From Nitrososphaerota archaeon (lineage in GTDB: Archaea > Thermoproteota > Nitrososphaeria > Conexivisphaerales > UBA164), in NCBI GenBank assembly GCA_029786595.1, contig JAFLXO010000009.1:1-35453 (forward strand): 35,453 nt of DNA, read 5' to 3'. Made by a program: the position numbers and the translations under genes. The notes under the pieces are model-generated. The model was not told the DNA's origin and ran no database searches. It saw only the letters and a program-made list of their open reading frames with translations. Below are positions 6,777-32,451 of the stretch, piece after piece. Position 1 is the stretch's first letter. Each line of letters opens with the position of its first letter.

Positions 6777-7140
6777 ATATGATAATAGCGATTGCAAATG
6801 ACTGACATGCCCCCACGAATAAATTCGTGAGTTTCTTGCTTCGCTTTCAAATTCATCCATCACGGTCTGGATGGTTTTGGAAAACCTATTGCCGAGTTCT
6901 GGCGTCTCTCCGGTCCTGAAAGGTATGCCTTTGTAGGTATTAGTGCTACACTTGTACACAGCCCTATCTGTTTTCAATAGGGATATGTCTTGAGACAATC
7001 CCAACCTCCTGGAGAAGTCCTTTCAGATCAATCATCTTATGGGGATTTTCGTACACGACTTCCCCAAAGAGCGGTTGCGTACTTGAATAATAGTTTCATC
7101 CTTAGATACAATGATTCCACATAATCCAACTACTGAACGC
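6693..7140 (-). pseudogene. Frameshifted coding remnant beside an insertion-like hairpin
   Basis: On the minus strand from about 7078 to 6970 one frame reads as protein-like sequence (TQPLFGEVVYENPHKM then LKGLLQEVGIVSRHIPIENR) before a stop. The next frame then continues from about 6965 with AVYKCSTNTYKGIPFRT and NRFSKTIQTVMDEFESEA. The join looks like a one-base frameshift near 6966. The second frame runs into the antisense 3' end of serS, so the end of any real gene is near 6800. I do not recognise the protein. A perfect hairpin (6814-6829) at its 3' end suggests a mobile-element origin, but no transposase motif is visible. Confidence 0.35.
6814..6829. repeat. Perfect 7-bp hairpin, possible IS200/IS605-type end
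   Basis: The sequence cacgaat-aa-attcgtg is a perfect stem with a two-base loop. It is flanked by c-rich sequence on the left and gtttcttgcttc on the right. Subterminal hairpins of this kind mark the ends of IS200/IS605-type elements, which are recognised by HUH transposases. This is a resemblance recalled from such elements; no transposase is present here. It could instead act as a serS terminator, lying 37 bases after the stop. Confidence 0.4.
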
Positions 7141-7148
7141 TGTTGGCT

Positions 7149-7444
7149 TTTACGCTAGAGCATGTGAGCATCCACTGCCGGTATTGGCCCACTGGGGTCG
7201 TCCGAGGCGGGGAGGGGACCTGTTTACAGCTTAAACGCTGTGGTGATTGTTGATATAAACATCTGGGATGCAACCAGATGGTCAACAAGGGCATAAGTTC
7301 GTGCACGCTCATCATCATTTCTAGATATTATTTAGCACAAAATGGTATTAAAGGACCGGTATTGTTGTTTTTGGGAAGTACATGCATGTTAGCGCCGTAA
7401 ATAATATCAGATCTTTACAGCTTTCCCCAAGTCCTTAACGCTCC
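7149..7444. repeat. Direct repeat unit, left copy (281 bp identical, 293/296 overall)
   Basis: Bases 7149-7429 are identical to 8573-8853. After two mismatches the similarity continues to 7444/8868 with one more mismatch. The unit contains two foldable segments: acagc/gctgt (7226-7230 with 7237-7241), and a longer stem with outer arms gttga/tcaac (7249-7253, 7282-7286) and inner arms catctgg/ccagatg (7260-7266, 7274-7280). One plus-strand frame ends in GRPRRGGDLFTA and a stop, and could be a transposase tail, but this is weak. The minus-strand open frame across the unit is not convincing as protein. The unit ends about 100 bases before the TGS gene. Confidence 0.85.
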
Positions 7445-7504
7445 TATAATGATGGAGCCTTACTCCGAATTTTAAATATATGATGTGTATTCATACTCCA
7501 ACAC

Positions 7505-7514
7505 GCTTATAAGG
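7505..7514 (+). promoter_or_regulatory. TATA-like box of the TGS-protein gene
   Basis: gcttataagg lies about 30 bases before the ATG at 7541. A second A/T stretch (gttaaatta, 7519-7527) is closer. Both lie outside the left direct repeat, so the repeat does not supply the core promoter. Confidence 0.45.
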
Positions 7515-7540
7515 TTGCAGTTAAATTAGCCCGACCGTTC

Positions 7541-8566
7541 ATGGTCACTAACCTGACCGCCGAAGCAAAGGCTATCTGGGCAAAGGCTTCTCAGGCCAAG
7601 GACCCGAAGGTCAAGCTGTCACTCCTAAAGGAGTTCTATTCTAAGATGCCGCACCATAAAGGTACGGAGAAACTTGAAGTGACTATAAAAAGACAGATGA
7701 CGTCTCTCAGGGAGGAGATAGAAGGACAGAGAATAAAGAGAAGAGGACAGAAGATAGATCCCTGGACACTGACCAGAGGGGATTTCATACAGACTGCGCT
7801 GGTCACCAACTTGGAAAAGTCGGCTAAACTATTCTATGATATGACAGGGCTGAAAGTTGGACTCTATGATGTCTATAACAGGCCAGTGGTGGGACCATTC
7901 ACTGAAGGAGGGGTTATAATACAAGTTTATCTTGCCCCGATAGACCGGTCTTTGGGCGCATCCCTTAATTCAAAATCACTAAAGATCATTAGACAGGTGG
8001 ATTTGTTGTTGGTTGAAAGAGGGGGAATAGGTTCAAGTATAAGGGAACTACTATCAGCGGAAAATATTGAAGCTTTAGTTGGCAGGCGGAGTAGGGTTGA
8101 GATTAAAAGGACTTCTACAGGAGGTATAAGGATAATTGGTTCATCGACAAAAATTGATAACTCGAGCATAGCAAGATTCCTTACTGAATACGGATTAAAG
8201 TCATGTATAGTGAGGGTGGAAAGTGACACGCTATTAGATGACGTAGAATCTGCGCTCTTTGGTCGTATACAAAAGCCTACTATTGAAATAGACATCAATT
8301 CGAAGGCTGATATGCTCAAAAGGGTGCTTAATGCTCTTGGACTGATTAGAGTGTATACTATTTCTAAATCAAAATCTTCAGATGACAGACCTATCTTATT
8401 GAATCGCGGCAGTACGGTTCAGGAACTTGGCGGTCTAATTCATAAGGAGCTGCAATATGGATTCAAGTATGCCATGTTACAAAGGAACGGTTCATCAACC
8501 AGAGTGGGAAGAAACTTTGTATTAAAAGATGGAGATATGGTGGAACTTGCGTCTTCACTCACGTGA
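7541..8566 (+). CDS. DRG-like TGS-domain protein with degenerate GTPase domain
   Basis: 341 residues. The C-terminal region (about 265-341) matches the DRG-family TGS domain closely: GLIRVYT, LLNRGSTVQELGGLIH, FKYAMLQ and VLKDGDMVEL. The N-terminus (1-70) has the charged DRG helical region, including the HKGTEKLE segment. Between them, where DRG proteins carry the P-loop GxPxVGKS, the sequence reads ALVTNLEKSAKLF (86-98). The switch motif DxPG and the NKxD motif are also not recognisable. It therefore probably does not bind GTP in the usual way. DRG proteins associate with ribosomes, so a structural ribosome-associated role is possible. The open frame is intact. The gene sits between two identical 281-bp direct repeats, its stop only 6 bases before the right copy. 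Confidence 0.75.
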   Translation: MVTNLTAEAKAIWAKASQAKDPKVKLSLLKEFYSKMPHHKGTEKLEVTIKRQMTSLREEIEGQRIKRRGQKIDPWTLTRGDFIQTALVTNLEKSAKLFYDMTGLKVGLYDVYNRPVVGPFTEGGVIIQVYLAPIDRSLGASLNSKSLKIIRQVDLLLVERGGIGSSIRELLSAENIEALVGRRSRVEIKRTSTGGIRIIGSSTKIDNSSIARFLTEYGLKSCIVRVESDTLLDDVESALFGRIQKPTIEIDINSKADMLKRVLNALGLIRVYTISKSKSSDDRPILLNRGSTVQELGGLIHKELQYGFKYAMLQRNGSSTRVGRNFVLKDGDMVELASSLT

Positions 8567-8572
8567 TATTCA

Positions 8573-8868
8573 TTTACGCTAGAGCATGTGAGCATCCACT
8601 GCCGGTATTGGCCCACTGGGGTCGTCCGAGGCGGGGAGGGGACCTGTTTACAGCTTAAACGCTGTGGTGATTGTTGATATAAACATCTGGGATGCAACCA
8701 GATGGTCAACAAGGGCATAAGTTCGTGCACGCTCATCATCATTTCTAGATATTATTTAGCACAAAATGGTATTAAAGGACCGGTATTGTTGTTTTTGGGA
8801 AGTACATGCATGTTAGCGCCGTAAATAATATCAGATCTTTACAGCTTTCCCCAGATCCTTAACGGTCC
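8573..8868. repeat. Direct repeat unit, right copy
   Basis: Same orientation as the left copy, offset by 1,424 bases. The 281-bp core 8573-8853 is identical to 7149-7429. It begins six bases after the stop codon of the TGS gene and ends 25 bases before the L11 stop codon, so it fills the convergent space between the two genes. Near-identity points to a recent event or to gene conversion between the copies. Confidence 0.85.
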
Positions 8869-8893
8869 AAAAAAATACGCTGATATTTAGTTT

Positions 8894-29111: not shown

Positions 29112-29330
29112 TTTATAGAGTAAGTTAGGGGTTTGGGGGAAGCGGTAAAACGCCAACCTTCACAGTAGTTCGAAACTTGTTAGTTTAGGATGGTTTTATT
29201 GAAGGCGGACCCGAATGCCTCAAGGAACATGGAAGTGTCCAGCAGGTCTGAGTACTTCGGGCTGTTATCAGCCAGCCAATAGTTGAAGTTCGATGAAACT
29301 CAACCTACGGGAAGGAGCGCCCGGCAACAA
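29112..29330. repeat. Inverted repeat flanking tldDE, left copy
   Basis: 219 bases that are the reverse complement of 32233-32451 at 217 positions; mismatches fall at 29155/32408 and 29322/32241. The end facing tldD reads ggcaacaa, the end facing the reductase reads tttatagag. The minus strand contains a 39-codon frame (29180-29299) ending at a stop, with YWLADNSPKYSDLLDTSMFL inside it, that could be the tail of a lost protein. The sequence ccggcaacaa at the inner end recurs at 29357-29366. Confidence 0.9.
29180..29299 (-). pseudogene. Short coding fragment inside the left inverted repeat
   Basis: A 39-codon frame with no start and a stop, preceded by an in-frame TGA. The sequence (NFNYWLADNSPKYS then TSMFLEAFGSAFNKTI) has protein-like composition and could be the C-terminus of a transposase or other gene. 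Not recognised. Confidence 0.25.
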
Positions 29331-29422
29331 GCTCTGAAGCTTTAACTGAGGAGTAGCCGGCAACAATCCAATTGCCTACTTAACAGTTATAGATATATAC
29401 TACGGAAAATTGTATTGTATAT
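29331..29422. promoter_or_regulatory. tldD upstream region
   Basis: 92 bases between the left inverted repeat and the tldD ATG. The stretch gttatagatatatacta (about 29386-29402) is the likely TATA box, some 25 bases before the start. The promoter thus lies inside the invertible interval and would turn with the genes. Confidence 0.4.
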
Positions 29423-32232: not shown

Positions 32233-32451
32233 TTGTTGCCAGGCGCTCCTTCCCGTAGGTTGAGTTTCATCGAACTTCAACTATTGGCTGGCTGATAACA
32301 GCCCGAAGTACTCAGACCTGCTGGACACTTCCATGTTCCTTGAGGCATTCGGGTCCGCCTTCAATAAAACCATCCTAAACTAACAAGTTTCGAACTACTG
32401 TGAAGGTCGGCGTTTTACCGCTTCCCCCAAACCCCTAACTTACTCTATAAA
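32233..32451. repeat. Inverted repeat flanking tldDE, right copy
   Basis: Reverse complement of 29112-29330 with two mismatches. Its outer end reaches into queC: the last four sense codons and the stop of queC (32435-32449) lie inside the repeat. The inner end starts 23 bases after the tldE stop. The plus strand carries the same 39-codon frame (32264-32383) as the left copy. Confidence 0.9.
32264..32383 (+). pseudogene. Short coding fragment inside the right inverted repeat
   Basis: The plus-strand counterpart of the left-copy fragment: 39 codons after an in-frame TGA, ending with TAA at 32381-32383. Sequence is the same as in the left copy. No function assigned. Confidence 0.25.

Follow-up and report, generated by a model that had tools for sequence, protein, structure and literature searches.

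What are the two identical repeats that bracket a single gene in this archaeal genome, and how did they come to be there? Within the window (the whole 35,453-nucleotide stretch that was analysed, from a Nitrososphaerota archaeon whose genome is referred to here as G000), positions 7149-7429 match positions 8573-8853 base for base over 281 bp, and the similarity runs on to 7448 and 8872, giving 300 nt at 98% identity with 5 mismatches. The two copies, for which the subfamily name D1 is used, lie in direct orientation 1424 bp apart with a TGS-domain gene (7541-8566) as the sole gene between them, just as the initial annotation had described, and a chance match over 281 bp is ruled out. A genome-wide search for the 281-bp unit, also proposed in that annotation, led to copies in two relatives (G001 and G002) but to no further full-length copy in G000, which is 83% complete. 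At the gathering threshold Rfam matches one tRNA only in the window and nothing in D1, and around the repeat no family matches D1 at E values up to 5.

The reading that we favour, at a probability of about 0.87, is that the repeats are old, non-autonomous, core-deleted relics of IS200/IS605 elements of the IS1341 (tnpB) type, lying on the minus strand and homogenised by conversion. What is observed directly is the homology, the structure of the ends, the location shared with relatives and how identity is distributed within and between species; the features are the following.

7149..7448, minus strand: element copy a, probably a core-deleted IS200/IS605 (tnpB-type) relic, with its left end at 7448 and its right end at 7149; repeat with copy b, orthologues in G001 and G002, profile homology to a tnpB 3' end
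7404..7448, minus strand: left end of copy a; left-end profile match in G000, E 9.3e-10, the D1 copies being among the profile's own source sequences
7149..7314, minus strand: half of copy a that probably stems from the 3' end of tnpB plus the right end, which in intact elements is the omega-RNA region
7149..7173, minus strand: right-end remnant of copy a; right-end profile match, 3' arm of the hairpin lost
8562..8872, minus strand: element copy b, with its left end at 8872 and its right end at about 8562; repeat with copy a, end-profile matches (left 8867-8829, right 8597-8562), junction sequence
8573..8738, minus strand: half of copy b probably derived from a tnpB 3' end and right end, as in copy a, shifted by 1424
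7541..8566, plus strand: TGS-domain gene, 341 aa; Pfam PF02824

The right end of copy b runs into the TGS stop codon (overlap 8562-8566), which in this genus places the element immediately at the end of the reading frame.

D1 and a second pair of repeats in the window (I1) have in common a 5' motif, roughly GTTARGGRYTTGGGGRAAGCNGTAAA, on the minus strand of D1; the initial annotation had read the opposite strand, wrongly. Elements of the same plan occur on a second contig of G000 (L004) and in a different genus (L012); the final stretch of L012, read by eye in frame, appears to resemble the tail of TnpB. A profile of D1-like elements, with no annotated tnpB gene among its sequences, matches the 3' end of a tnpB gene (L079) in G008, which belongs to another genus (E 8.4e-13); model positions 137-305 of D1 are colinear with that tnpB end, from the C-terminal tail into the right-end hairpin. 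A left-end profile of 48 nt, built from ten seeds that include the left end of a G002 tnpB, matches at about 50 places in seven of the 11 genomes of the archaeal family; some profile matches inside the window are partly by construction, window sequences having been used as seeds. The initial annotation had advised looking for copies beside TnpB genes, and left ends of the family do lie immediately in front of tnpB frames in three genomes (G002, G000 and G008). About 40 distinct left ends form a graded series from a tnpB of 368 aa via internal deletions to fused ends of about 70 nt, among them an N-terminal tnpB fragment (71% identity over 147 aa) as well as forms with an internal deletion that keep C-terminal remnants of TnpB. 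An intact tnpB element belonging to exactly the D1 subfamily, with its two ends on a single contig, did not turn up; the contig of L089 breaks off short of the right end.

The ends themselves are of the same kind. TnpB elements of Sulfolobus carry a TTTAA/TTTAT-like motif before the left end (PMC10640517), and TTTAA/TTTAT/CTTAT-like motifs precede 59% of 41 left ends compared with 6% in shuffles, an approximately tenfold enrichment by which the D1 family resembles the IS1341-type tnpB elements of Sulfolobus islandicus (PMC10640517); copy a has ATTAT at this position, and copy b has no clear TTTAT-like motif. The right-end hairpin covaries across 14 right ends, which were picked by the analyst with reference to an anchor. 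Matches to the right-end profile also lie behind two tnpB genes (L064 and L086), neither of which is among the seeds of the profile. D1 has the full right-end hairpin in G002 and has lost its 3' arm in G000 and G001. RNAalifold returned no consensus structure for 13 left ends, and by eye a stem can be sketched for several of them. The proposal of a non-autonomous IS200/IS605-like unit is supported by left and right ends that match those of tnpB genes and tnpB relics in the same archaeal family. TnpB zinc-ribbon matches are especially numerous in one relative (G007), which has 111 of them (L064, L075 and L086 included), many short or broken, indicating a large expansion of these elements.

Known systems provide close parallels. 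In tnpB elements including ISDra2, as in D1, the 3' end of tnpB runs into a right-end hairpin (PMC8612924); D1 differs from intact IS200/IS605 tnpB elements in that it has neither tnpB nor tnpA and has lost a hairpin arm in G000. Palindrome-associated transposable elements (PATEs) of Haloquadratum walsbyi consist of gene-less IS605-type ends brought together by deletion of the core; they are short, with near-terminal palindromes, and neither terminal inverted repeats nor target duplications were reported for them (PMC3119063). The series in the Conexivisphaerales shows the same grades as the PATEs, and D1 likewise combines a left end and a right end with 3' tnpB region as in tnpB elements and a right-end palindrome, whereas its sequence is unrelated and its host belongs to a different archaeal phylum. 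Strain-specific insertions demonstrate the mobility of PATEs in Haloquadratum; none was seen for D1, whose pair is old and surrounds one gene. Miniature elements (MITEs) derived from inverted-repeat transposons are, like D1, non-autonomous, intergenic and multi-copy derivatives of insertion sequences, whereas in D1 no terminal inverted repeats were seen and the ends are asymmetric, of the IS200/IS605 kind. D1 would then be a relic of IS200/IS605 origin that resembles the PATEs, and a new local family within an already known element type.

How old the pair is can be judged from related genomes, the nearest named ones being metagenome-assembled genomes labelled Conexivisphaerales, Nitrososphaerales or Thaumarchaeota. 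In G001 and G002, two further species from the genus of G000 (Conexivisphaerales, Nitrososphaeria), a D1 pair flanks the same TGS gene; the spacing is 1418 in G001, where both copies are on one contig, as against 1424 in G000, and in G002 the second copy is divided between two contig ends. The initial annotation had taken near-identity to imply recent duplication or conversion. Recent duplication is rejected, the pair being common to three species of one genus and older than their split, and judging from these sequences D1 appears to have flanked TGS before the three hot-spring archaeal species diverged. Between G000 and G001 the TGS gene diverges by 1%, adjacent intergenic DNA by approximately 5% and D1 by approximately 8%; between G000 and G002 the values are 10.5% for D1 and 12% for adjacent intergenic DNA.

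Conversion fits these data. The two copies show no difference over 281 bp in G000 or in the readable parts of G002, and in G001 they are 89% alike; metagenome assembly can, however, collapse repeats and so create such identity. The D1 sites of G000 include some common only to copy a of G001, some common only to copy b of G001 and some that are private, which points to conversion between old paralogues. It is unlikely that the identity in G000 is instead an assembly artefact, two differing relics having been collapsed into one sequence. All these genomes are metagenome-assembled, contigs of G001 and G002 end inside such repeats, and the two copies in G001 differ by 11%. Both copies in G000, however, lie in one continuous contig with edges of their own (5 differences in 300 nt), the pieces in G002 agree with each other, and the mosaic of sites like either G001 copy fits conversion. 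We infer that ectopic gene conversion, rather than assembly collapse, has kept the copies alike.

The gene between the copies raises the question of whether they once carried it, as the initial annotation suggested in comparing the arrangement to a composite element with one gene. Such an element, with copy b supplying its left end and copy a its right end, would have brought TGS to its present place. The copies are direct and their outer ends are of the fitting kind. TGS has changed neighbours between genera: in three other genera (L098-L102) its neighbourhood comprises prefoldin, ftsY, UDG and NAD synthase, whereas in the genus of the window it lies between serS and rplK. Gene order is generally reshuffled, however, and in other genera serS and rplK lie apart; TGS belongs to the core genes, being present in 11/11 genomes of the archaeal family (G004 has a weak TGS-domain match only); and two separate insertions, or one insertion with local duplication, account equally well for the pair. 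Neither an empty site nor a second location of the gene was found. We consider transport of TGS by the pair improbable. The element boundaries are likewise presumptive, since no precise empty site was found.

Another part of the earlier description concerned RNA. In intact elements the 3' end of tnpB together with the right end gives rise to the guide RNA (PMC8612924), and the copies might be omega-RNA-like genes that have been retained. A minus-strand transcript would then start at a promoter derived from tnpB and end in a guide taken from the flanking DNA, TnpB would be encoded elsewhere, and selection or TnpB-driven repair would keep the copies alike. The 3' half of D1 is homologous to the guide-RNA region of intact elements (PMC8612924), pairs are retained in three species, and the quietest block of the alignment, 55 columns (p 0.04) over a TATA-like, promoter-like stretch and the former tnpB start, hints at some constraint on D1. 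Against this, a compensating change is found in only 1/76 pairs of the predicted D1 structure (four sequences, hence low power) and in none of the pairs of the helices drawn in the initial annotation; D1 diverges like neighbouring intergenic DNA; G000 and G001 have a broken right-end hairpin; and G000 (83% complete) has no TnpB zinc-ribbon match above the curated cut-off. The stems of the initial annotation are present in the sequence, and as conserved RNA they are rejected: two-sided changes occur in 0/19 pairs of its three helices, a comparison of low power with four distinct copies from three species; in three of these copies acagc/gctgt has one broken pair. The fold energy of D1 is ordinary on the plus strand (z -0.8) and somewhat low on the minus strand (z -2.1).

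A guide-type RNA, which the initial annotation had envisaged, is thus possible by homology only, with neither covariation nor slower divergence than the neighbouring intergenic DNA. With a rate of divergence close to that of nearby intergenic DNA, D1 shows no good sign of a selected RNA. The chance that the copies are retained omega-RNA-like genes is slim. Slimmer still is the prospect that they exemplify tnpB-less guide-RNA units with their own promoter, served by TnpB in trans, whose paired copies around the same genes are kept identical by repair that TnpB cutting sets off.

Y1 TnpA genes occur in G000. The one on contig C73 (L169, 862-1332) is an IS200-type tnpA with its own hairpin ends; it was considered as the cognate transposase and rejected for having its own, different ends. 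A right end of the tnpB family lies approximately 130 nt from this gene (L169, 700-736). One exact right-end pattern used to look for viral copies found no match in IMG/VR, a weak test.

D1 has company in the window, in the form of a pair from a different subfamily and a solitary end.

29112..29362, plus strand: element I1a, from another subfamily of the family to which D1 belongs, upstream of tldD/pmbA; left end 29113-29159, right end 29327-29362; inverted repeat with I1b
32233..32451, minus strand: element I1b, inverted partner of I1a, without the right-end hairpin; left-end match 32450-32404
6801..6837, minus strand: right end of another, distinct tnpB-element relic next to copy a; right-end profile, E 3.3e-5, partly by construction, the stretch itself being in the profile

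I1b is 99% identical to I1a over 219 nt (29112-29330 and 32233-32451), inverted around the tldD/pmbA genes, and by the same pattern as in D1 the I1 pair is probably also an old, homogenised one. The I1 pair is also found in G002, where the readable parts are identical, and one contig of G001 ends inside it. With its decayed right end, the gap between serS and copy a (6777-7148) looks like a small graveyard of tnpB-type elements.

On the reading that we favour, an ancestral tnpB element would have lost the tnpB core through internal deletion, so that D1 retained both ends, together with DNA from upstream of the tnpB start and the final portion of the gene. Two copies of one subfamily would have settled on either side of TGS before the split of the three species, and afterwards they would have been homogenised by ectopic gene conversion while otherwise drifting roughly like their intergenic surroundings. 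Mobility has probably been lost, and D1 is presumably without present function.

An eye-catching repeat is thereby explained as a common kind of mobile-element relic, and a graded series, with an open tnpB frame at one extreme and fused ends of approximately 70 nt at the other, is documented for the Conexivisphaerales; a small literature search on this order, covering titles and the openings of abstracts, found no description of such elements. Identical repeats in metagenome-assembled archaeal genomes need not reflect recent duplication. Paired, homogenised copies around core genes, such as those surrounding TGS and tldD/pmbA, may offer a gauge of ectopic gene conversion in these archaea.
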